Positions 317 to 15,231 of a stretch of DNA of 36,764 bases are shown piece after piece (position 1 is the first letter of the stretch; every line of letters starts with the position of its first letter). The stretch covers positions 1 to 36,764 of the forward strand of contig DAHUZI010000042.1 in NCBI GenBank assembly GCA_027306595.1, given 5' to 3'. Below the pieces are notes generated by a model. That model did not search any database, was not told the DNA's origin, and was given only the letters and a program-made list of their open reading frames with translations. Origin of the DNA: Candidatus Dormiibacterota bacterium (GTDB taxonomy: Bacteria > Chloroflexota > Dormibacteria > Aeolococcales > Bog-877). A program made the translations under genes and the position numbers.

Positions 317-1573
317 TCACCGGCTGGAGGCCTCCAGCCGGCGGCGCACGTCGGCGACCAGGGCGGCCGGACCGGGGAGGAGCCGCCCCCGCCCGTCCGC
401 CAGCTCGCCCTCGAGGATGAGGCGGGCCACCTCCTGCTGGGGGGCGGCCCGGCGGTGGACCACCAGCGCCCCCTCCCCAGGCCGGGGCCCGTCGAGGGGG
501 AGCGGCCCCTGGTGTTGGAAGCCGCCGTCGGGGCCCACCGTGCCGACCCCGCTCGCAAGGTCGACGGTCCTCGCCACCGATCCCAGGTTGTGGAGGATGA
601 GCTGGGACCAGCCGCAGGTGAGCCGCTCGGGCAGGGTCCCGGTTGCGGCGGGGTCGAAGACCGAGACGTGCTCGGCCAGGATCGAGGGCCGGCCGGCGTC
701 GCGGGCGGCGAGGTTCCACAGCGGGACGGAGGCCACCAGCCGGGGGTTGACCTCGATGCAGAAGACCGTGTCGTCGGCGGCCACCACGAGGTCGACGCCG
801 AAGAGCCCCCGATGCCCCTCGCGCTGGAGCCAGGCGGCGGCCCGGGCCGCGACCGAGCGCACCGCCGCCTCGGCGGCGAGCGGCCGCCCGAAGTCGTTGC
901 CGCACGACCCCAGCGGGTGCGGGGTGAGGACGTCGATCCCGGTCAGCTGCCGGCAGGCGACCCCGAGCGCGATGCGCGCGTCGCCGATGACGCCGGTCAC
1001 CGTGACCGGGTCGCCGGCCACGAAGGTCGCGACCCGGCAGCTGCGCCCCTCGTCCGCGTGCAGGGCCGCCGCCAGCGCCTTTGGGGTCTCGGCGAGCCGG
1101 GTCGTCCTCCCGCTGTAGCCGCTGGCCAGCTGGACCACCCAGGGGCCCTTCAGGCCCAGCGCCGCCTCGAGGAGCTGGGGACCGGCGGGGCCGACCACCG
1201 TGGGGGCGAGCGGGAGCCAGGCGCCGGGGGCGGTCCGGGCGAAGTGGGCCTTGTTCTCGAGCCGGCGGGCCACCTGGGCCCGGGCATTGGCGAGCGGCCG
1301 GCCGGTCGCCCGCACCAGCTCGGCGATCCGGACCGACGGCTTCCAGACCACGACGGCGCCGGCGGACCGGGTCAGCCACTCGCGCACCGCCGCCTGCTCG
1401 AGGAGCGCGAGCGCCCCGGCGCGCGCGGGCGCCGGGACCTCGGTGACGCGACCCCGGGGCTCGTCGACGATCCCGCACGCGTCCGCGCAGACCGCCAGGA
1501 GCCCGCTGCCGAGGGCGGGGATCGGGTCGGCCCCGACGTACGCCGCGGGGCCCGACGGGTGGGGTTCGGTCAA
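317..1573 (-). CDS. ATP-grasp domain ligase (carboxylate-amine/carboligase type)
   Basis: A 418-residue protein of the ATP-grasp superfamily, whose members activate a carboxylate as an acyl phosphate and join it to an amine, thiol or other nucleophile. Visible parts are a weak pre-ATP-grasp domain (about 1-110), a nucleotide-binding lobe with LKGPWVVQLASGYSGRTTR (about 145-170), and the metal/ATP site with FGVDLVV followed by FCIEVNPRLVAS (Glu and Asn of the ExN motif). A C-terminal region of about 100 residues resembles the end of biotin-carboxylase-like enzymes. The TTG start at 1573 overlaps the TGA of the upstream PLP-enzyme gene (TTGA), so the two are probably translationally coupled. 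The NPR motif recalls the predicted carboligases of COG2232, but the substrate is unknown. Partnership with the nearby LysW-type carrier is possible, since LysX and ArgX are also ATP-grasp enzymes, but this is inference. Confidence 0.85.
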   Translation of the reverse strand: MTEPHPSGPAAYVGADPIPALGSGLLAVCADACGIVDEPRGRVTEVPAPARAGALALLEQAAVREWLTRSAGAVVVWKPSVRIAELVRATGRPLANARAQVARRLENKAHFARTAPGAWLPLAPTVVGPAGPQLLEAALGLKGPWVVQLASGYSGRTTRLAETPKALAAALHADEGRSCRVATFVAGDPVTVTGVIGDARIALGVACRQLTGIDVLTPHPLGSCGNDFGRPLAAEAAVRSVAARAAAWLQREGHRGLFGVDLVVAADDTVFCIEVNPRLVASVPLWNLAARDAGRPSILAEHVSVFDPAATGTLPERLTCGWSQLILHNLGSVARTVDLASGVGTVGPDGGFQHQGPLPLDGPRPGEGALVVHRRAAPQQEVARLILEGELADGRGRLLPGPAALVADVRRRLEASSR

Positions 1574-2616
1574 CGGCGCTCGGCCGGGGGGCCGAGCCCG
1601 GCCGCCACCAGCCGCCGATCGAGGGCGGCCACGTCGCCGACCCAGTCGAGCCCGGAGCGGCCGAGGGGCGTGGGGTCGGGGGCGCAGTCGAGCTGGGCGG
1701 CCTCGCCCGTGAGCAGGGCCGCCACCCGCCGCCCCCCGAGGAGCTGAGCCGCCTGGCGGATCGCCGCCAGGACCGCGATCCCCTCCCACGAGGTCGTGAC
1801 CCCGCAGGCGGCGGCAAGGACCCGGATCGGCTCGAGCCCGGCCGCATCCACCGGCCAGCTCCGCCCACCGCTGGCCCCGACGAGCCGCCGCACGGCCCCG
1901 TGGCGGCGCCCCCGCTGGGCCCCGAGCTCGAAGGGCCGGCCGCCGCCGGCCGCCCCGCTCCCGCGCACGGCGTGGAGCTGGGGGCCGCCGCCGGGGCGAT
2001 CGCCGAATCCCTCCGCCAGCCCCACCATCGTCGCCCCGCTGCTGGCGAAGGCGAAGACGGCGTCGACGGCGCGGTCGCCCGCCAAGCCGGACTCGAGCTC
2101 CCAGGCGATGGCCCGGTAGGCCATGGGGGCGAGGGGGTGGACGGACGGGCGCAGATCCTCGCAGCCGAAGGCGTCGACGGCCCGGCGGAGGCAGGCTACC
2201 GGGGCGGGGCTGACGAGCAGGATCCCGGGGTAGCGCGCGAGGGCGCGGAGCTTGACCTCGGGGGTGCGGGGCGAGACGAGGACGACCACCGGCACCCCCT
2301 CGAGGGCGGCGTAGGCGGCGGCGGCGACGGCGCCGTTGCCGGAGGAGGAGAGGACGCCCGGGCGCCCCGACGCCCGCAGGGCGGCGCACTGGATGGCCAG
2401 CGCCCGGTCCTTGTGGCTGCCGGTCGGGTTGCCGTCCTCGCGCTTCAGCCAGAGGTCCGCCACCCCGAGGGCACGGCCGAGCGCCGGCGCCGGCACCAGC
2501 TGGGTCCGGCCCTCGCCGAGCGTGGACCCCACCTCGCTGGGTAGACTCCACCGGGCCCGGTCCTCCGGCCCCGGCCGCAGGCCGGCTGCCCGGTCGGCCG
2601 CGGCGTCGGCCGTCAC
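1570..2616 (-). CDS. Threonine-synthase-like PLP-dependent enzyme (fold type II)
   Basis: A 348-residue fold-type II PLP enzyme of the threonine synthase group. LGEGRTQLVPAPALG is the substrate-side motif. NPTGSHKDR carries the Schiff-base lysine, and SSSGNGAVAAAAYA is the Ser-x-Gly-Asn cofactor loop. The protein lacks the N-terminal zinc-ribbon-like segment of many threonine synthases and has no hom or thrB next to it, so a role in threonine synthesis is not shown by context. Relatives make other beta- or gamma-substituted amino acids. GTG 2616 is chosen because it keeps the region before LGEG that aligns with the family (RARWSLP). GTG 2532 is a shorter alternative. Its 5' end lies only 12 nt from the divergent LysW-type gene, and its stop overlaps the ATP-grasp start. 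Confidence 0.8.
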   Translation of the reverse strand: MTADAAADRAAGLRPGPEDRARWSLPSEVGSTLGEGRTQLVPAPALGRALGVADLWLKREDGNPTGSHKDRALAIQCAALRASGRPGVLSSSGNGAVAAAAYAALEGVPVVVLVSPRTPEVKLRALARYPGILLVSPAPVACLRRAVDAFGCEDLRPSVHPLAPMAYRAIAWELESGLAGDRAVDAVFAFASSGATMVGLAEGFGDRPGGGPQLHAVRGSGAAGGGRPFELGAQRGRRHGAVRRLVGASGGRSWPVDAAGLEPIRVLAAACGVTTSWEGIAVLAAIRQAAQLLGGRRVAALLTGEAAQLDCAPDPTPLGRSGLDWVGDVAALDRRLVAAGLGPPAERR

Positions 2617-2628
2617 GGGAGCCCACCG

Positions 2629-2805
2629 GTGGACGAAGCGGTCCGGAGCGCTGACCCCAGCTGTCCTGATTGCGGCGGGCGGGTCCAGGTGCCGGCCGAT
2701 GCCGAGGTGGGCGAGGTGGTCGAGTGCCTCCAGTGCGCCGCCCCGCTCGAGCTGGTCGCCACCCGCCCGCTCACGCTCGTGCCCTTCGACGAGGAGGAGA
2801 AGTAG
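2629..2805 (+). CDS. lysW: LysW-type amino-group carrier protein
   Basis: A 58-residue acidic zinc-ribbon protein. SCPDCGGRV and VVECLQCAAPLELV give the two CxxC pairs and the GExVECxxC...LEL layout typical of LysW. In lysine and arginine synthesis of Thermus and archaea, LysW carries the substrate amide-linked to its C-terminal glutamate while ATP-grasp LysX/ArgX and other enzymes act on it. Only GTG 2629 can start the frame, and GGGAG lies 8 nt upstream. The protein ends Asp-Glu-Glu-Glu-Lys instead of the usual EDWGE, so the attachment residue is not terminal. It is the only plus-strand gene in the first 10 kb, overlaps the 3' end of the MurD-like gene by 35 nt, and is head to head with the PLP enzyme. 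No lysX, lysZ, lysY or lysJ is visible here. Confidence 0.72.
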   Translation: MDEAVRSADPSCPDCGGRVQVPADAEVGEVVECLQCAAPLELVATRPLTLVPFDEEEK

Positions 2806-4306
2806 CCGGCGGCCGCAGGGCCCGCACCGCCGCCCGGAACCCCCGCCCCCCGGGGTCCGGCCCGTAGAAGGCGTGGAAGACGCCCGGGCAGGCCGGGGAG
2901 AATAAGACCGTGGACCCGAGGGAGGCGGCGGCGGCGGCCAGGGCGACCGCCTCGTCCAGGGTGGGCGCCCGCTCGATGTGGGCGGCCGCCCCCGCCGCCT
3001 CCAGCGCCCGGGCGATCCGCTCGGAGCCCGGGCCGGGGAGGAGCACGACCCGCCGGACCGGATCGGGGACGGTGGCGGCCAGCGGCCCGACGTCGAGGCC
3101 CTTATCGTCCCCGCCGCAGATGAGGACGACGGGCCGCCCGCAGGCCTGGATGGCCGCCACCGTCGACTGCGGGGTCGTCGAGTTGAGGTCGTCGACGAAG
3201 TCCACCCCGTCCTGCTGCCAGACCAGCTGGGTGCGGTGGCGCAGGGGGGCGAAGGTGCGGAGCGCGTCGGCGGCCGCCGCCGGCAGCGGGCCCAGCGCCG
3301 CCACGGTGGCGACCGCGGCGCGGATGTTCGCGCGGTTGTGGGCGCCGCGGAGCGCGAGCCACGCCACCGGGAGCCGCTCGGCCATCCGCCCGCTGCGGCG
3401 GACGACGACGGCGTCGCCGTCGTCGGCGGCCCCATCCCGTCCGGCGAGGCCCGCCAGCTCGCGAGCGAAGCGCAGCTCGCGAGCGCCTGGGGCGACCGGG
3501 CACCGCGCGAGGCTCACCGGGTCGTCCCCATTGCGGACCGCGACTCGGTTGCCCGGGAGGGCGAAGAGGCGCGCCTTGGCGGCGGCGTAGGCGGCGAAGC
3601 CCCCGTGCTCGTCCAGGTGGTTGGGGGTGAGGTTTGTGAGGCAGGCGACCGCGGGCGCCGTCTCCATCTGGAGGAGCTGGCGGTTGCTGATCTCCACGAC
3701 CAGCAGGTCGGCCGGGCCGCCGGCGGCGGCCTCGACCAGGCACGGCAGGTGATGGCGGTCATTGCCGGCCAGCCGCACCGCCTCGACCGCGGGAGTGCGG
3801 GCGGCTAGGGCGGCGATCAGCGCGGCGGTCGTGGACTTGCCATGGCTGCCGCTCACGCCGACGACCGGGCCGCTGGCGCAGTCGAGATAGGCCTGGGCGA
3901 GGCTGTAGAGGGGTCGCCCCGCATCCCGCCAGGCGGCCAGCGGCCGGTTGGCGGGGTGGAGGAACCAGGCCTGGGTCGGCACCACGACCGCCGCCTCGTC
4001 GATCCCCTCGAGGTACCGGTCGCCGAGCCGCCAGCTCCACACCCCCTCGAGGAGCGCCCGCCAGCGGGCCCGGCGCAGGGGCACCGGCAGACCGGCGTGG
4101 GCGCGCTCGAACGCGGCCGCCACCGACTCGGGGCCGGACTCGGGGGCGAGGTCGTGGCCCACGACCCTGGGGCAGCCGGCGGCCAGGCAGAAGCGCGCCA
4201 TCTCGGCGCCCTCGACGCTGGCGATGCCGACCACGTGGATGGGGGCGTCGCGGTGCGGGGCGAGGGCCGCGGGCAGGACGGCCGCAGCGGCCCCCGGTGG
4301 CGGCAT
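2771..4306 (-). CDS. MurD-like Mur ligase family protein
   Basis: A 511-residue Mur ligase, longer than typical MurD (about 440-470). The N-terminal domain (1-180) is divergent. The central ATPase domain has the P-loop GVSGSHGKSTT, VVEISNRQLLQ (MurD: ExSSFQL) and the MurD signature LTPNHLDEHGGFAAYAAAK. The C-terminal domain has VDFVDDLNSTTPQST, ICGGDDKGLDV and SPACPGVFHAF. Canonical MurD joins D-glutamate to UDP-MurNAc-L-Ala in the cytoplasm. Here the C-terminal NDSKATN and SPACAS motifs, whose residues bind D-Glu in E. coli MurD, are replaced, so the amino-acid acceptor may differ. The neighbours are an NlpC/P60 peptidase and ATP-grasp and PLP enzymes, not a dcw cluster. ATG 4306 is chosen as the first start before the Rossmann-like strand IHVVGIAS. 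It may be the cell's MurD, a recycling ligase or a biosynthetic paralogue. Confidence 0.8.
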   Translation of the reverse strand: MPPPGAAAAVLPAALAPHRDAPIHVVGIASVEGAEMARFCLAAGCPRVVGHDLAPESGPESVAAAFERAHAGLPVPLRRARWRALLEGVWSWRLGDRYLEGIDEAAVVVPTQAWFLHPANRPLAAWRDAGRPLYSLAQAYLDCASGPVVGVSGSHGKSTTAALIAALAARTPAVEAVRLAGNDRHHLPCLVEAAAGGPADLLVVEISNRQLLQMETAPAVACLTNLTPNHLDEHGGFAAYAAAKARLFALPGNRVAVRNGDDPVSLARCPVAPGARELRFARELAGLAGRDGAADDGDAVVVRRSGRMAERLPVAWLALRGAHNRANIRAAVATVAALGPLPAAAADALRTFAPLRHRTQLVWQQDGVDFVDDLNSTTPQSTVAAIQACGRPVVLICGGDDKGLDVGPLAATVPDPVRRVVLLPGPGSERIARALEAAGAAAHIERAPTLDEAVALAAAAASLGSTVLFSPACPGVFHAFYGPDPGGRGFRAAVRALRPPATSPPRRRARA

Positions 4307-4349: not shown

Positions 4350-5228
4350 TCAGTCGGCCGGCTGGGCGCCGTCGCCCCCGAGGCGCCGCCAGCCGAGGAC
4401 CTGGTAGCGCTGCTCGAAGGTCCGGCGTGGCTCCACCCGCACCGCCCCGGTCTCGCTGCAGGCGTGGACCACCCGCTCGGCGTCGAGGGCGAGCGCGACG
4501 TGGCTGACGCGCCGCCCGCGCGACAGCGCCCCGGCGAGGTCGCCGGCGTCGACGGCCGCAGGGGCGACCCGCGCGCCGCAGGCCCGCTGCCCCCGGCTGT
4601 TGCGGGGCAGAAGGAGCCCGACTCGAAGGAGGGCCCGCCAGACCAGCCCGGAGCAGTCGAAGCCGCGCCCCCCGGTTGCCCCCCAGACGTAGGGCCGGCC
4701 GACCTGGGCGACAACGAAGTCCAGGACCTGCGGCCAGGCCGGGCTGGGGGACCACGCCCCGGGGAGGACCGGGGTGAGGCCCAGCCGGCCAGGGTCGCCG
4801 GGCGGGCCGAGCCGGAACGGCGCCGCCCGGTCAACCCAGCCGACCGCCTGACCGGGGGCCCGCACCAGCAGGGCGGCCCCGCGCACGGCGAGGAGCTCGG
4901 CGGGGGGATCGCCCGCGAGCAGCTCGGTCGTCAACGAGGCGCCGGCCCCACCTGGGCCGGGGCGGCCGCGCCAGACCGACAGGGGCTCGACCTGGGGCCA
5001 GCACGCGCGCCGGGGCCGGCGGTCGGCGAGGACGTGGAGCCGCACCGCGAGGTCGGGCCAGCGGGCCCCGATCCGGGCCCGCACCGCCTGTGCCTGGGCC
5101 CCGACCCCGACCACCCCGACGACCCCCTCCGGCGTGGCCCGGACGTCGAAGACCGGGTCCGGGTAGCGGGCCGCCATGCTGCCGCGAAGCTCCTCCAGGG
5201 CGAGCGATAGCTCGGCGGGCAAGCTCAC
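4350..5228 (-). CDS. NlpC/P60 family cysteine peptidase with SH3-like region
   Basis: A 292-residue protein with a C-terminal NlpC/P60 domain (about 165-285). The catalytic set is visible: Cys192 in GFDCSG, His243 in RVSHVAL and His255 in VVHACSETG. The strand GRPYVWGA before the cysteine is typical. The middle region (about 105-140, LLAVRGAALLVRAPGQAVGWV) looks like the bacterial SH3 domain found in YkfC-type gamma-D-glutamyl-diamino-acid endopeptidases, which degrade murein peptides. No signal peptide is visible, which fits cytoplasmic peptide recycling better than wall hydrolysis (inference). The GTG start at 5228 overlaps the stop of the upstream DUF1444-like gene (GTGA), so the two are probably coupled. 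The MurD-like gene follows after 43 nt. Confidence 0.88.
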   Translation of the reverse strand: MSLPAELSLALEELRGSMAARYPDPVFDVRATPEGVVGVVGVGAQAQAVRARIGARWPDLAVRLHVLADRRPRRACWPQVEPLSVWRGRPGPGGAGASLTTELLAGDPPAELLAVRGAALLVRAPGQAVGWVDRAAPFRLGPPGDPGRLGLTPVLPGAWSPSPAWPQVLDFVVAQVGRPYVWGATGGRGFDCSGLVWRALLRVGLLLPRNSRGQRACGARVAPAAVDAGDLAGALSRGRRVSHVALALDAERVVHACSETGAVRVEPRRTFEQRYQVLGWRRLGGDGAQPAD

Positions 5229-6103
5229 CTGTCGGTCCCCCGGCCGGAGCCCCGACCGAGCAGACCCGCCAGGCCCCGCCGGGTCTGCGGCTGGGCCGTG
5301 ATGTGGGTCCCGTCGGTGACGAGGATCAGCGGCGAGAGCGGGCTCGCGGCCTCGCGGAACGCCCGTGCCACCGCCCGGGTGAACCGGTCGGGGCCGCGGT
5401 CGGCGCCCAGGGCCACGAGGACGAGCCCACGGTCCGGGGCGGCCAGCCGCGCCGGCCCCCCGCCTCGACCGACGAGGAGCCGCCGGAGCTCGGGGACCAC
5501 CAGCAGGCTGGAGACGAAGAGCCGGTCGCCGCCGAACTGCCAGGGCCCGCCTCCCTCGGTGCGCTCGAGGGCGGTCAGCCAGCGGGCGAACCGGGCCTGG
5601 GTGTTGCGGTCGGCGAGGCGGCGCAGCTCGGCGTCGTCGAGCCCGGCGGCGGCGGCCTCGGGGACGGAGACCCCCCGGAGCGCCTCGTCCGGCAGCGCCT
5701 CGGCGACGAAGGCGCAGAGGCCGGGGACGACCGGCTGGCGGCAGAGCTCCTCACTGCGGTCGTAGGCGTCGACGCTGGCGTCGGTCCTCACGCACCAGAG
5801 GAGGGCGCCGGGGTCGGGGCCGCCCGCCGGCGGACCGCCGGGAGCGGCCACCAACCGGGGCGCGACCCCCGCGACGAAGCGCCCGATCTCGGCCGGCGCC
5901 GAAGCCCCGGGACGGTTGGCGTCGATGAACAGGGTCGTGAGCGCGAGCGACACCCCGCCCGCCGTCTCCCCGGCCCGGCGGGCCCGGACCGCGAAGCTGT
6001 CGGGGTCGGGCTCGAAGGTCCAGCCCGGGTAGCGCGCGCGCAGCTGGAGCGCCAGCCGGGCCGCGAAGGCCTGGCGGTCGGCGTAGGCGATGCCGCTGGA
6101 CAC
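5225..6103 (-). CDS. DUF1444 (YtpQ)-like protein, function unknown
   Basis: A 292-residue soluble protein. It begins with an Arg/Ala-rich helix and a strand WTFEPDPDSFAVRAR, and contains the conspicuous GPWQFGGDRLFVSSLLVVPEL at about 200-220. It ends with RAVARAFREAASPLSPLILVTDG. The order of these segments resembles DUF1444/YtpQ proteins, whose function is unknown. The match was made by eye and is tentative. The gene starts 17 nt after the VWA gene and its stop overlaps the NlpC/P60 start, so it sits in the middle of one transcription unit. No transmembrane segment or signal peptide is seen. Confidence 0.6.
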   Translation of the reverse strand: MSSGIAYADRQAFAARLALQLRARYPGWTFEPDPDSFAVRARRAGETAGGVSLALTTLFIDANRPGASAPAEIGRFVAGVAPRLVAAPGGPPAGGPDPGALLWCVRTDASVDAYDRSEELCRQPVVPGLCAFVAEALPDEALRGVSVPEAAAAGLDDAELRRLADRNTQARFARWLTALERTEGGGPWQFGGDRLFVSSLLVVPELRRLLVGRGGGPARLAAPDRGLVLVALGADRGPDRFTRAVARAFREAASPLSPLILVTDGTHITAQPQTRRGLAGLLGRGSGRGTDR

Positions 6104-6119: not shown

Positions 6120-8114
6120 TCAGGCCGCTCGACCGCGCCCGGCGACGTAGTCGAGGAGGACGTAGTCGCCGAGGCGATCCGGGCTGATGAAGAACGCGCG
6201 GCCCCGGTTCTGGCGGGTCATCCGGCGGACGAACTGGACGAGCTGCTGGTTGCTCTCCAGCATGAAGGTGTTGATCACGATGCCGTCGCGGGTGCAGGCG
6301 CGCACCGCCTCCAGGGTGCGCTGGAACGTCTCCGGCAGGGGCGGGTAGCAGAACACCGCCCGGTCGCCCTCCATGTGGGCGGTCGGCTCGCCGTCGCTGA
6401 CGATGATGACCTGCCGGTTGCCCCCCGGATGGCGGGCGAGCAGCCGCCGTGCCAGCAGGAGCCCGTGCTGGAGATTGGTGCCGCAGACGTACTCGTTGTA
6501 CGAGAGGTGGGCGAGGGCCCCCTGGGGGATCTCGCGGGCGTAGTCCGAGAAGCCGACGACGTAGAGCTGATCGCGGGGGTACTGGGTGCGGATCAGGGCG
6601 TCGAGGGCGAGGGCCACCTTCTTGGCGGCGTAGAAGTAGCCCCGCAGCGGCATGCTCCGGCTCATGTCAAGCATGAGGACGCTGGTGGTCCGGGTCGTGC
6701 GCTCGGTGGCGTGGACAACGAAGTCGTCAGGCCCCAGCCGGACCGGCACCCGCATCCCCCGGCGCCGCACCGCGCCGAGGAGGGTTTCGCCGAGGTCGAG
6801 GTCGAAGGCGTCGCCGAACTGGTAGGGGCGGGTCTCCCCCAGCCGGTCGCCCCCGATCCCACGGGCGGCGGTCGGGTGCGCCCCGAAGCGGTCCGCGGTC
6901 AGCCGCCGGAAGATGTCGCCCAGCGCCTTCTGCCCGATCCGGCGGATCCCGCGCGGGGTCAGCTCGAGCCCGCGCTCGCCGCGATGCAGGTAGCCCTGGC
7001 GCTCTAGCTGGCGGGCGAGCGCCTCGACCCGGTCAACGGTGCGGATGGCGTCGTCGCCGAGCGTGCGCCGGAGCTGGTCGCGCAACGGCTCCGACACCGG
7101 CTCGCCCCCGTAGGCCTGGCGCAGAGCGCCCTCCAGCTCCTCGGTTGTCCGCAGCTCCCCCATCAGATCGAGCGCGTCCCCGAAGGGAAGCGACTCGTCG
7201 CCCAGGAATCGGTACCGGGCGCCCGCCCCCTCCCTGACCCCGAGCTGGCGGAGCTGCCGGCCCAGCTCGGCCAGCGCCGCCTGGAGATCGGGATCGTCGA
7301 GCGCCGCCGCCATCATCGCCTCCAGCTCCCGCCGCGCCCGCGCGGGCATGGAGCGCATCAGCGCCCGCAGCGCCTCGCTCTGCTGGCGCAGGCGCTCGAG
7401 GAACCCCTCGAAGGTGGGCGGGGCGCCGGGGAAGAAGCCGCCGAAGGCGCCAAGGAAGCCGGCGTAGTCGGGGTCCTCGCCGGCCGCGTGGGCCCGCAGC
7501 ATCCGGGTGAGCGCCTCCACCATCGCCCGCAGGCGCTGGCGCTCGGCCTCTCCCATCGACTGCATCGCCGCCCCGGCCTCGCGAAGCTGGGCCCCCACCA
7601 TCTGGTCGCGCAGCTCGGTGAGCAGAGCCTTGAACGCCTCCTCCGCCGCCGGATCGAGGAACTCGTAGCCCTGCAGGGCCCGGATCGCCGAGGCGGGGTC
7701 GGGGGGGAGCGCGTCGAGCTGGCGCAGGCGCGCCTCCGCCATGCGCTTGCGGATGCGGTCGGCCGCGGGGTCGCCGTGGGCCGCGGTCGGCCGGGTGCGG
7801 TCGGCGATCCCCCGCCGCTCTTGCTCGACGATGCGGTCGAGCCGCTCGCGGATGTCGCTGAAGAGCCCCTCGAGGTTGAAGCGCTCGAGCTCCCGCTGGC
7901 GGCGGCGGCGCAGCTGGTCGATCAGCCCCTCAAGGCCCGGCAGGCGGCGGCCAGAGCCGTCCCGCAGGCCCTGGCCGAGCAGGCGGCGCAGCGCCGACTC
8001 GACGTCCCAGCCGTGAAAGACGTCCTCGGCCAGACGGCCGAAGCCGTCCTCGACATCGACCTCCGGGATGTCCTGGGAGCCGTCCCAGCTCGAGTAGCGG
8101 TGGCGCACCGCCAT
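6120..8114 (-). CDS. VWA (von Willebrand A) domain protein, partner of the AAA ATPase
   Basis: A 664-residue protein. The first 450 residues are rich in charged helices (many Arg, Glu, Gln), probably a helical or coiled-coil scaffold. The C-terminal VWA domain (about 475-650) has a complete MIDAS metal site: Asp483-x-Ser485-x-Ser487 in LDMSRSM, the Thr in CGTNLQ and the Asp in VSDGEPTA. This layout with an adjacent chelatase-like AAA gene is the MoxR/VWA or BchI/BchD-type pairing, in which the ATPase remodels a target delivered by the VWA protein. In mycobacteria the comparable pair is Rv0958/Rv0959 (from memory). The target here is unknown. ATG 8114 lies 2 nt after the AAA stop, so the two genes are almost certainly co-expressed. 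Confidence 0.88.
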   Translation of the reverse strand: MAVRHRYSSWDGSQDIPEVDVEDGFGRLAEDVFHGWDVESALRRLLGQGLRDGSGRRLPGLEGLIDQLRRRRQRELERFNLEGLFSDIRERLDRIVEQERRGIADRTRPTAAHGDPAADRIRKRMAEARLRQLDALPPDPASAIRALQGYEFLDPAAEEAFKALLTELRDQMVGAQLREAGAAMQSMGEAERQRLRAMVEALTRMLRAHAAGEDPDYAGFLGAFGGFFPGAPPTFEGFLERLRQQSEALRALMRSMPARARRELEAMMAAALDDPDLQAALAELGRQLRQLGVREGAGARYRFLGDESLPFGDALDLMGELRTTEELEGALRQAYGGEPVSEPLRDQLRRTLGDDAIRTVDRVEALARQLERQGYLHRGERGLELTPRGIRRIGQKALGDIFRRLTADRFGAHPTAARGIGGDRLGETRPYQFGDAFDLDLGETLLGAVRRRGMRVPVRLGPDDFVVHATERTTRTTSVLMLDMSRSMPLRGYFYAAKKVALALDALIRTQYPRDQLYVVGFSDYAREIPQGALAHLSYNEYVCGTNLQHGLLLARRLLARHPGGNRQVIIVSDGEPTAHMEGDRAVFCYPPLPETFQRTLEAVRACTRDGIVINTFMLESNQQLVQFVRRMTRQNRGRAFFISPDRLGDYVLLDYVAGRGRAA

Positions 8115-8116
8115 CG

Positions 8117-9511
8117 TCAGCTCCCGTAGACGGTGTTGCCGTCGACCTCGGTCTTGTTCAGCCGCTTACCCACGTGCAGGCCCTCGAGGATGAATTCGAG
8201 GGCGGCGGCGCTGGACCCCGGCGTCACCGGCTCCTCCAGCTTCGCCAGCTGGCGGTCGAGCCCGCCGGCCTCGGCGGCGGCGGCTCGGTAGCGATCCAGG
8301 GTCAGCGCCTCCCCCACCTCCACGTGGAGCCCCTGCTGGAAGCGCTGGACCAGCTCGGAGAACTCCTGCATCGAGAAGTGGCGGCGGAACACGTTGCCGC
8401 AGGCGGTCCGGAGCAGCTTGGCGAGCAGGCCCTGGTCGTCCCCCTCCTCGAAGGCCTCCAGTTCGAGCTTCCCCCAGGTGGAGGCGGCCAGCGCCCCGAG
8501 GTCCGAGATCCGGGGCACCGCCTGCGGCTCCTGGAGCCGGATCGCGCGCCGGGCGGCGGCCGCGCAGAGGCTCTCGTAGTTGGCGATCGACAGGCGCACC
8601 GACACCCCCGAGCGCTGGTTCACCTGGGGGCTGCGGCGGGCGAGCTGCGTCACCTCGGCGACGATCTCGCGCATATACGCCGGCACGTGCAGCGACACCG
8701 GCAGGTCGTCGAACGGGGCCCGCTCCGCCTCCATGATCGCGACCTCCTCCTCCACCTCGCGCGGGTAGTGGGTCCGCACCTGGGCGCCGAAGCGGTCCTT
8801 GAGGGGGGTGATGATGCGCCCGCGATTGGTGTAGTCCTCGGGGTTCGCGGTCGCGATCACGACCACGTCGAGCGGAAGCCGCACCCGAAAGCCCCGGATC
8901 TGAACGTCGCGCTCCTCCATGCAGGTGAGCAGCCCAACCTGGATGCGCTCGGCGAGGTCGGGGAGCTCGTTGATGGCGAAGAGCCCGCGGTTCACCCGGG
9001 GCAGCAGGCCGTAGTGGATCGTGAGCTCGTCGGCCAGGTACCGGCCCTCGGCGACCCGGATCGGGTCGACTTCGCCGATGAGGTCCGCGATGGAGGTGTC
9101 GGGGGTCGCGAGCTTCTCCCCGAACCGCGCATCGCGACCGATCCAGCTGATCGGCGTCCGGTCCCCCAGCTCCGCAAGGCGGTCGCGCCCGAAACGGCTG
9201 ATCGGGGCGTACGGGTGGTCGTTGACCTCACTGCCGGCGATGATCGGGATCTGCTCGTCGAGGAGGCCGACCAGGAGCCGGATGAGCCTCGACTTCGCCT
9301 GGCCCCGCTCGCCGAGGAGGATGAGGTCCTGCCCGGCCAGGATCGCGTTCTCGATCTGGGGGACGACGGTGTCGTCGTAGCCGACGATGCCCCGGAAGAC
9401 GCTCTCCCCCTGCCGGAGCATGCGGACGAGGTTGTCCCGCAGCTCGGCCCGGACGGAGCGGTGCCGGTACTCGCTGCCGCGAAGCTCGCCGACGGTGGTG
9501 GGGAGGGTCAT
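8117..9511 (-). CDS. AAA+ ATPase of the magnesium-chelatase/MoxR-like group
   Basis: A 464-residue AAA+ protein. Walker A is GERGQAKS (67-74). The Walker B region reads LFAINELPDL, with Asn-Glu in place of Asp-Glu. Sensor 1 is VIATANPEDYTNRGR, and TPLKDRFGAQVRTHYP follows. The same NELPDL and ANPEDYTNRGR strings occur, from memory, in mycobacterial Rv0958, annotated as a possible magnesium chelatase, so the Asn is a family trait and not decay. No bch or chl genes are nearby, so a role in pigment synthesis is unlikely. It probably works with the VWA protein that follows. The ATG at 9511 has no clear ribosome binding site. A TATAGT -10-like box lies about 37 nt upstream. Confidence 0.88.
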   Translation of the reverse strand: MTLPTTVGELRGSEYRHRSVRAELRDNLVRMLRQGESVFRGIVGYDDTVVPQIENAILAGQDLILLGERGQAKSRLIRLLVGLLDEQIPIIAGSEVNDHPYAPISRFGRDRLAELGDRTPISWIGRDARFGEKLATPDTSIADLIGEVDPIRVAEGRYLADELTIHYGLLPRVNRGLFAINELPDLAERIQVGLLTCMEERDVQIRGFRVRLPLDVVVIATANPEDYTNRGRIITPLKDRFGAQVRTHYPREVEEEVAIMEAERAPFDDLPVSLHVPAYMREIVAEVTQLARRSPQVNQRSGVSVRLSIANYESLCAAAARRAIRLQEPQAVPRISDLGALAASTWGKLELEAFEEGDDQGLLAKLLRTACGNVFRRHFSMQEFSELVQRFQQGLHVEVGEALTLDRYRAAAAEAGGLDRQLAKLEEPVTPGSSAAALEFILEGLHVGKRLNKTEVDGNTVYGS

Positions 9512-13023: not shown

Positions 13024-13533
13024 ATGCGCGGTACGAGCCGCCCGGGCCCGCCTCCAGACGGCGACCTCGCCCTCGCGGGCCGGGAGGGCGGGGAGCACTC
13101 GTCGCCCGACCCGGAGCGGGCCGAGCTGCGCGCCCGCTCGGCCCAGGCCTCCAGGGCCGTGCTCCACACGCTGGCCTGGGTGCTGGGGATCTACTTCGCC
13201 AGCGACTACCTCCCCCCGCTGGCGGTCCGCCAGCTGGCGCCGCCCGGCTCGGGGGGGCTTCGCATCTACCTCACGGGGTACCTGGTGCTCGCCGCAATCT
13301 GCGTGGTCCTCGGCACGGCCTTCGCCCGCGTGTACCGCCCGGCGATCGCTCGCAGCCGGTACCCCCAGCGCTGGCTGGTGTTCCCCGTCCTGCTGGCGGT
13401 CCTCCTCATCCCCTCCCAGGGCTGGAACGAGTGGCTGACCCGCGGGGTGGAGGCCGGCGCGCTGGTCCTCGGCCTCGGGGCGGGGCTCAGGTCACGTAGT
13501 CGGTGGCGGTCGCGGTCACGTTCCCAAGGCTGA
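13024..13533 (+). CDS. Small multi-pass membrane protein of unknown function
   Basis: A 169-residue protein with a charged N-terminus of about 45 residues. Hydrophobic segments lie near 46-66 (VLHTLAWVLGIYF), 81-103 (IYLTGYLVLAAICVVLG), 117-131 (LVFPVLLAVLLIP) and 142-155. The C-terminal tail is an Arg/Ser repeat (RSRSRWRSRSRSQG). Third-position GC and the clean hydrophobic pattern support coding. The ATG at 13024 has no strong ribosome binding site, and the start could lie a few codons away. The last 47 nt overlap the 3' end of the tadE-like gene on the other strand, which may explain the odd Arg/Ser tail. I do not recognise the family. Confidence 0.6.
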   Translation: MRGTSRPGPPPDGDLALAGREGGEHSSPDPERAELRARSAQASRAVLHTLAWVLGIYFASDYLPPLAVRQLAPPGSGGLRIYLTGYLVLAAICVVLGTAFARVYRPAIARSRYPQRWLVFPVLLAVLLIPSQGWNEWLTRGVEAGALVLGLGAGLRSRSRWRSRSRSQG

Positions 13534-13963
13534 GCCCGAAGGGGAGCCCGAAGGCCCGGTAGGGCAGGGTCACGGTGACGACGCAGCCGGGTCCCTCATT
13601 CGTGTAGGCGGTGTTGGGGACGGCCGTCTCCAGCGTGGTGCTGGTGATGCTGGGCGCGAAGGGACCGGCCGCTGCCTGAGCCGAGTTCAGCATCCCGCTC
13701 GGGGCCACGCCCGGCAACGGGCCGTTCGGTCCGCACTCGGGCACGAGCGTGTTGCCCTGTGCGCCGGTGAGCTGCTTCATGTTGACGCCGGCCACCGCCC
13801 AGCGGGCCGCCGCCTGCACCGCTCGGTTGGCCGCCTGGACCTCGAAGACGTACAGGGCGAGCGTCATCATCCCCATGATCGTGAACAGGAAGAGCGCACC
13901 GACCATCGCGAACTCGACCAGGGTGGCGCCCTGCTCTCCGGACCGCCAGCGGCCGTCGATCAC
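13487..13963 (-). CDS. TadE-like pilus assembly protein
   Basis: A 158-residue protein with the TadE hallmark: a short basic N-terminus, GEQGATLVEFAMVGALFLFTIMG, then a single transmembrane helix (about 15-38) with the conserved Glu of the pseudopilin-type motif. AxxAAxxAARWA follows. The C-terminal half is secreted and has two Cys (ECGPN, GPGCVV). TadE and TadF are minor pseudopilins of Flp/Tad pili. No tadA, tadB or tadC lies in this window. The GTG start at 13963 overlaps the stop of the upstream Ig-domain TadE gene (GTGA), so they are co-translated. The 3' end overlaps a convergent membrane-protein gene. Confidence 0.82.
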   Translation of the reverse strand: MIDGRWRSGEQGATLVEFAMVGALFLFTIMGMMTLALYVFEVQAANRAVQAAARWAVAGVNMKQLTGAQGNTLVPECGPNGPLPGVAPSGMLNSAQAAAGPFAPSITSTTLETAVPNTAYTNEGPGCVVTVTLPYRAFGLPFGLSLGNVTATATDYVT

Positions 13964-15231
13964 GGCGACACCGTGATCGTCAGGCTACCGGAGGTGGCGA
14001 TCTCGGGCGTGCCCGGGGTGCTGTCCAGGGCCTGCACCGTGACGGTGTAGGTCCCGGTGGTGCTGGTCAGCGTGCCGCCGATGACGCCCGACGACGAGAG
14101 GGTGAGGCCGGGCGGCAGGCTGCCGGACGCAAGGCTCCAGCTGTAGGGGGTCGTGCCGCCGGTCGCCTGGAGGGTGTCCGTGTAGGCCTTCGACTTCTTC
14201 CCGCTCGGGAGCGAGGTGGTGGTGATCGTCAGGGGATTGGGGCTGACGGTGATCGTGAACGTCTGGGTCGCCGACTCCGCGGTGGGCGTCGTGCTGTCCG
14301 TCACCTGCGCCGTGAACGTGTAGTTGGCGTTCGAGGACGTGCCCGACTCGGTGCCGGAGATCACCCCCCCGCTGCTCAGCGTGAGGCCTGGCGGCAGCGA
14401 CCCGCCGGCGAGCGACCACGTGTAGGGCGTCGTGCCGCCGGTGGCGGCCAGGGTCGTCGAGTAGGCTTGCCCCTGGCTCGCCCCCGGCAGGGCGCTGGTC
14501 GTGATGTCGAGCGTCCCGATCGTGAGCGTGAAGGTGGCGCTGTCCGTCTGGGGGGACGGCGTGGCGCTGTCGGTCACCGTCACCGTGAACGTGGACGATC
14601 CGTCGGTGGTCGGGGTCCCGGTGATGGTGCCGCTGGTCGGGTTGAGGGTGAGGCCCGTCGGCAGGGCCCCCGCCGAGACGCCCCACGTGTAGGGGGGGAC
14701 CCCGCCGCTGGCGGAGAGCGTCGTCGAGTAGCTCTGCCCGGCGATGCCGGTGGGCAGCGGGGACGGGGTGAGGATCGTGAGCACCCCGATCTGCACCAGC
14801 CCGGTGGCGCTGGCGCCGATCGTCACCGGAGACGGCAGGAGGGGGGTGAGGAGCGGGAGGCTGCAGGTCACGGTGATCGGCTGGTAGAGAAACCCCGAAG
14901 CGTTCGGAGCCTGGGTCGGGGCCGGCGCGTCGACCGAGAGACGGCCGGACGGGCAGTCGAGCACGGTGGCGGCCAGGCTGGAGCCGCTCGACCCGGTGTT
15001 GCCCTCGGCGATCGACATCAGGTCGCTTGCGGGGGTGCCGGGGTTGTCGGCGGCGTAGAGGGCGGCCTGGCGGGCGCCGTCGGCGACCTGGATCCCGACG
15101 AAGTAGGCGCGCGCCAAGTCGCTCGCGCCGGCGAGCAGGAGGAGCATGAACGGAACGATCAGCGCGAACTCGACCAGGCTCTGGCCACGACGACGGTCGC
15201 GCCCGGGGCCGCGCCTACTGGACGAGCTCAA
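13960..15231 (-). CDS. TadE-like protein with three tandem Ig-like domains
   Basis: A 423-residue envelope protein. The N-terminus RRGQSLVEFALIVPFMLLLLAGASDLARAYF is a TadE-type segment with one transmembrane helix (about 18-40). Residues 41-150 are the usual TadE exterior. Three repeats of about 90 residues follow (about 151-240, 241-331, 332-423), each with the pattern GxxYSTTLxAxGGxxPYTW, LPxGLTL, GxIxGT and FTVTVTDS. These match putative Ig (He_PIG-type) folds used in bacterial adhesins. Such domains on a pseudopilin would extend outward and could mediate adhesion (inference). The start is TTG at 15231, inside the end of the TadG-like gene (17-nt overlap), and the stop overlaps the next tadE. 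Confidence 0.82.
   Translation of the reverse strand: MSSSSRRGPGRDRRRGQSLVEFALIVPFMLLLLAGASDLARAYFVGIQVADGARQAALYAADNPGTPASDLMSIAEGNTGSSGSSLAATVLDCPSGRLSVDAPAPTQAPNASGFLYQPITVTCSLPLLTPLLPSPVTIGASATGLVQIGVLTILTPSPLPTGIAGQSYSTTLSASGGVPPYTWGVSAGALPTGLTLNPTSGTITGTPTTDGSSTFTVTVTDSATPSPQTDSATFTLTIGTLDITTSALPGASQGQAYSTTLAATGGTTPYTWSLAGGSLPPGLTLSSGGVISGTESGTSSNANYTFTAQVTDSTTPTAESATQTFTITVSPNPLTITTTSLPSGKKSKAYTDTLQATGGTTPYSWSLASGSLPPGLTLSSSGVIGGTLTSTTGTYTVTVQALDSTPGTPEIATSGSLTITVSP

Follow-up and report, generated by a model that had tools for sequence, protein, structure and literature searches.

A lysine-tailed, LysW-like carrier gene in a multi-phylum gene module suggests a protein-tethered route to cell-wall D-glutamate in bacteria without MurI and canonical MurD

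LysW and ArgW, which serve lysine and arginine synthesis in Thermus and Sulfolobus, are zinc-ribbon proteins (PF21344) of about 55 amino acids with an acidic tail and an ATP-grasp partner encoded nearby; they end in the Glu of an EDWGE motif, and LysW binds the amine of its substrate by this C-terminal Glu. The accepted sources of D-Glu, the second residue of the peptidoglycan stem peptide, are MurI, D-amino-acid transaminase and, rarely, MurL or DapF. Carrier-bound synthesis of an amino acid is also known from Pearlins, which rest on an unrelated peptide, are loaded in a tRNA-dependent manner and have no zinc ribbon. Pearlins resemble the scheme proposed below in that an amino acid (3-thiaglutamate) is built on the end of a small carrier (PMC9303977). 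The nearest functional parallel is MurD2/MurL, the alternative peptidoglycan pathway of Xanthomonas, which likewise includes a MurD-like ligase and replaces MurI in D-Glu incorporation (PMC8788868), and in Chlamydia DapF is reported to act as a Glu racemase (PMC5885031). A literature search covering a minority of subscription papers found nothing joining LysW with D-Glu or peptidoglycan synthesis.

The window analysed here is a stretch of 36,764 nucleotides from a Candidatus Dormiibacterota bacterium (GenBank assembly GCA_027306595.1, contig DAHUZI010000042.1). Near its start, a gene for a LysW-like carrier lies among genes for enzymes that set it apart from LysW and ArgW:

317–1573, minus strand: ATP-grasp ligase of the PF02655 type (35.3 bits; family A1; AlphaFold pLDDT 90), with a TTG start overlapping the stop codon of the PLP gene
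1570–2616, minus strand: fold-type II PLP enzyme, threonine-synthase-like (PF00291, 117.8 bits), with invariant GSHK and SSSGN motifs
2617–2621, plus strand: Shine-Dalgarno-like GGGAG of the carrier gene, within the 12-nt divergent gap
2629–2805, plus strand: LysW-like zinc-ribbon carrier gene (PF21344), 58 aa, GTG start, C-terminus ...FDEEEK, with invariant residues and a pN/pS of 0.39
2771–2805, no single strand: antisense overlap of the carrier end and the MurD-like gene end, exactly 35 nt in 18/18 family loci
2800–2802, plus strand: codon of the C-terminal Lys (K58), the putative attachment residue; a Lys end is found in 31/31 module-associated genes
2771–4306, minus strand: MurD-like ligase, the proposed MurD replacement (TIGR01087, 198.5 bits, cut-off 211.95), the best MurD match in every family genome
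4350–5228, minus strand: NlpC/P60 hydrolase, the proposed releasing enzyme (PF00877, 63.2 bits, cut-off 23)
5225–6103, minus strand: conserved protein of uncertain membership in the module, a neighbour in family f1 and conserved in L151, with no Pfam match above cut-off and no NCBIfam family

Upstream of the module lie genes for a vWA protein and a MoxR-type ATPase (6120–9511), in a neighbourhood conserved in L151, and outside it TadE-like pilus proteins with putative Ig-like repeats (13487–15231).

The carrier ORF is a real gene under purifying selection. A sequence-only reading of this DNA had described a 58-codon gene on the plus strand with two CxxC pairs and a GEVVECLQCAAPLEL motif, set 12 nt from the PLP gene and overlapping the MurD-like gene by 35 nt, and each of these particulars proved exact; the pairs are CPDC and CLQC, and the protein ends in VPFDEEEK. 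Homologues are found in 18/18 genomes of the window's family (f1), always antisense and, as the proposed comparison of gene order brought out, between the same two flanking genes. The four cysteines, C12, C15, C33 and C36, are invariant across 19 aligned relatives, together with E41 and K58. Outside the overlap the pN/pS of the carrier frame is 0.39 and that of the two other sense frames exceeds 1; one antisense frame gives 0.52, its codon third positions being common to the carrier frame. A Shine-Dalgarno-like site precedes the start by 7–8 nt in 18/18 family loci, compared with 26% of control positions; a scan of window positions 2200–3000 found no sigma-70-like promoter or terminator. Frame-specific selection, conservation of the Shine-Dalgarno-like site and homologues in other phyla rule out a spurious ORF. 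The same bases encode the C-termini of the carrier and of the MurD-like protein at 2771–2805 and in family loci L002–L018, and L023 has a 32-nt antisense overlap of like kind, apparently of separate origin.

That the gene encodes a LysW-type carrier, as first supposed, holds for the domain but not for the strict family. The protein matches the LysW zinc-ribbon domain in Pfam (PF21344, 44.3 bits against a cut-off of 27, E = 1.4e-11), and its best PDB matches are solved LysW structures, but the profile search also left it under the cut-offs of both NCBIfam LysW models (NF041070, 41.3 against 75; TIGR01206, 26.8 against 53.2). Because of these scores, because LysW ends in EDWGE and the carrier in Lys, and because the neighbouring ATP-grasp enzyme is not of the RimK/LysX type, the carrier is not a strict LysW, and its tail and neighbours rule out an ordinary lysine-synthesis LysW. 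The most telling part of the protein is this C-terminus, ...DEEEK instead of ...EDWGE, which the sequence-only reading had passed over, as it had any link to the loss of MurI and MurD.

Of the rows collected, 46 end in Lys and 57 (about 54 distinct) in DWGE, with no intermediates. Each of the 31 distinct Lys-ended genes has as neighbours a ThrC-like PLP gene and an ATP-grasp and/or MurD-like ligase gene, a non-random sample because these rows were partly gathered via neighbouring genes; none of the approximately 54 distinct DWGE-ended genes, gathered via the carrier domain alone, lies beside PLP, ATP-grasp or MurD-like genes of the module. Lys-ended tails usually read DEEK or EEEK, with EIEK in L021 and YVQK in L193; the L204 carrier ends in FFEEEEK. 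In family f1 the EEEK tail is partly constrained by the antisense overlap, though same-strand relatives retain EEEK; retention through the overlap alone is ruled out, those relatives having kept EEEK or EIEK and L193 just the Lys. Lys58 may be the site of substrate attachment, a role for which we see the chances as evenly balanced. Four family genomes (L132–L135) hold a second, canonical EDWGE LysW gene distant from the carrier locus.

The ATP-grasp ligase belongs to PF02655, and Pfam gives it no RimK/LysX-type match; a fold search returned generic ATP-grasp enzymes only, and in NCBIfam it shows weak similarity to the gamma-glutamyl ligases BesA and MfnD (21.6 and 16.8 bits, far under cut-offs). 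The PLP enzyme falls under the cut-offs of the curated ThrC models (57.5 against 303 and 46.8 against 167), and its nearest solved folds are threonine synthases, not known racemases; its invariant SSSGN presumably puts a Ser at the position of serine racemase Ser84, which we treat as a lead only. The MurD-like protein shares with MurD the middle and C-terminal Mur ligase domains and the equivalent of Lys348 (E. coli numbering), which is kept in all module members, and differs in its N-terminal domain, in its Glu side-chain site, in lying outside the dcw cluster and, in family f1, in scoring under the equivalog cut-off of TIGR01087 (198.5 bits in the window, 178–205 in the genome searches; the G335 relative reaches 263.9); the Asp182 equivalent is D, A, E or G. 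The NlpC/P60 protein has a PF00877 domain with a catalytic Cys in an FDCSGLV motif, and such genes also neighbour the module in L022, L025, L032, L204 and CPR loci; no signal peptide was visible by eye on the module's members. Its PDB matches include 3h41, 3npf and 3pvq, which we take to be tied to YkfC-type endopeptidases, enzymes that share a cytosolic NlpC/P60 fold with the module protein at remote similarity.

Several phyla share the module. Genes for the MurD-like protein, the carrier and the PLP enzyme adjoin one another in MAGs labelled Gemmatimonadetes (L021), Anaerolineae (L022), Thermoleophilia (L025, L032) and Gottesmanbacteria (L023), and carrier, PLP and ATP-grasp genes occur together in Dojkabacteria (L024), where they sit amid YceG, MraY-type transferase, FemAB and Mur ligase genes (L024:4170-12615), and in an uncultured bacterium (L029). 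A single 905-aa ORF of the Anaerolineae MAG (L022:5959-8676) fuses the PLP enzyme to the ATP-grasp enzyme, and this fusion and the co-occurrence of the gene set across phyla bear out the early suggestion that the carrier serves the two enzymes. ATP-grasp family A1 was found in 17/18 family genomes, the exception (G004) probably arising from a contig end short of the gene, and in 7/7 cluster-bearing genomes from elsewhere, some of the genomes scored having themselves supplied A1 (G335, G339 and G341 had not); among 10 outgroup genomes, four gave matches under 24 bits only and six none. A blind A1 search of 301 genomes of the window's phylum retrieved a sole genome outside the family, G175, whose locus L204 holds NlpC/P60, MurD-like, carrier, PLP and ATP-grasp genes in a row on one strand, a complete five-gene operon. 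The carrier gene runs against its neighbours in the window's family, L023 and those CPR loci that were read, and in the same direction as they do in L021, L022, L025, L032 and L204. The inversion that the sequence-only reading stressed is thus real but a feature of lineage, and function does not need it, because these same-strand carriers exist.

Profile searches found MurI in none of the 18 family genomes and no canonical MurD over cut-off, the best MurD match being the module locus, in genomes that are mostly incomplete MAGs (the window's genome is 76% complete). MurI is present in 9 of the 10 outgroup genomes, and each of the 10 has a canonical MurD over cut-off. One sister-family genome (G021:C46, L199) has neither MurI nor the module and a weaker MurD (259 bits); it perhaps uses another D-Glu route, and its gene neighbourhoods yielded no MurL candidate. 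Within the dcw cluster, sister genome G019 has murD between MraY and FtsW, the place where family genome G008 is empty with the remaining order intact. None of the seven cluster-bearing genomes from elsewhere has MurI over cut-off (there is one 18-bit trace), and in five of them the best MurD match is the MurD-like protein of the module; in two CPR genomes, G338 and G340, the carrier, PLP and ATP-grasp genes are present and a MurD-like protein was not found. A D-amino-acid transaminase over cut-off was found in no genome tested, and this source of D-Glu is ruled out, the class IV enzymes of G008 and G000 being IlvE. MurT is part of the enzyme that amidates D-Glu at position 2; G008 retains it together with MurC, two MurE and a MurF-like protein, and Glu is therefore still expected at that position. 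Both MurE-family genes of G008 (L196, L197) score over cut-off.

Among 287 Patescibacteria genomes, MurI occurs in 0 of 22 with strong A1 matches (p = 4e-4, kinship ignored, at a stricter threshold picked after the pre-set one), and at the pre-set E-value in 6 of 36 A1-positive genomes, a weak exclusion (p = 0.054, kinship ignored). G340:C3 (L179) and Patescibacteria matches of 101–209 bits belong to a paralogous ATP-grasp subfamily from which MurI is not excluded.

From this pattern of gene content, the module probably replaces MurI and MurD, supplying D-Glu and attaching it as the second stem-peptide residue. This replacement, joined to the carrier chemistry that we infer, is the best explanation overall, and we think it slightly likelier to be right than wrong. 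The ATP-grasp ligase would couple L-Glu, through its gamma-carboxylate, to the epsilon-amine on the C-terminal Lys of the carrier, so that the alpha-amine of Glu stays free; the tethered Glu would then be racemised by the ThrC-like PLP enzyme; a cytosolic NlpC/P60 enzyme would free D-Glu from the carrier, before or after ligation; and the MurD-like enzyme would join D-Glu to UDP-MurNAc-L-Ala. Tethering by the carboxyl group fits because the PLP enzyme requires a free alpha-amine, and fits the Lys tail because Lys supplies an amine where LysW supplies a carboxylate, so that the scheme would be the mirror image of LysW. The PLP role may be understood from ThrC, whose substrate, an amino acid of four carbons, bears a bulky gamma group, a shape that gamma-glutamyl-Lys shares. 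Known NlpC/P60 members cut after gamma-D-Glu, and for this reason, and because the module's members have no visible signal peptide, NlpC/P60 is the candidate releasing enzyme. A new class of pathway, in which D-Glu is held by its carboxyl on the carrier's C-terminal Lys and which replaces MurI and canonical MurD in several phyla, is a possibility to which we would give rather less than an even chance, and the carrier-bound scheme in all its steps is more tentative still. Counting against it are the nearness of the PLP fold to threonine synthases, the generic ATP-grasp fold, the two CPR genomes without a MurD-like protein and the weak exclusion in Patescibacteria at the pre-set E-value; D-Glu may also come from MurL or from DapF, the racemase reported for Chlamydia (PMC5885031).

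Three other readings seem to us improbable to a like degree. The carrier could be a detached subunit of the PLP enzyme that carries no substrate, comparable to the zinc ribbon that many threonine synthases have at their N-terminus: its gene usually adjoins the PLP gene, and Pfam finds no zinc ribbon in the PLP protein itself. Its best domain match in Pfam and among solved structures is LysW, however, and a subunit role leaves unexplained both the ATP-grasp enzyme and why the C-terminal Lys is invariant when the acidic tail that bears it varies. An amino acid other than Glu might be made and attached at position 2, as the altered residues around the Glu side-chain site of MurD (Ser415 region) and the resemblance of the PLP enzyme to a synthase would allow; the retained MurT and MurE and the conserved Lys348 equivalent make this unlikely. 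Nor do we expect that L-Glu is attached by the MurD-like enzyme and then epimerised by the other gene products at the UDP-MurNAc-dipeptide stage, in the manner of MurL from Xanthomonas. Some bacteria that lack MurI are known to use MurD2/MurL instead (PMC8788868), and the module-bearing genomes lack MurI as well; but the MurD2/MurL pathway has no carrier, PLP enzyme or ATP-grasp/NlpC pair, the window protein has Asp and Lys in place of the decisive MurD2 residues Glu197 and Arg358, and the PLP enzyme requires a free amine, which the dipeptide does not have. Least likely, and very improbable, is a secondary-metabolite module, with other racemases and ligases standing in for MurI and MurD or with the loss of the two a coincidence: both genes are lost in 18/18 family genomes and MurI in 7/7 other module carriers, and the CPR locus L024 has the module beside an MraY-type transferase and FemAB, even though LysW-type carriers do serve secondary metabolism in Streptomyces.

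A Lys-tailed carrier gene beside four enzyme genes in genomes without MurI and canonical MurD suggests an as yet undescribed protein-tethered route to the D-Glu of the cell wall. Replacement of MurI and MurD by the module is well supported as a prediction from gene content, the chemistry remaining a proposal open to direct test with a few recombinant proteins. If true, the carrier-bound route would add one more solution to the essential D-Glu step, would explain the cell wall in bacteria that have neither MurI nor canonical MurD, and would widen LysW-type chemistry, which tethers by the amine, to tethering by the carboxyl group.
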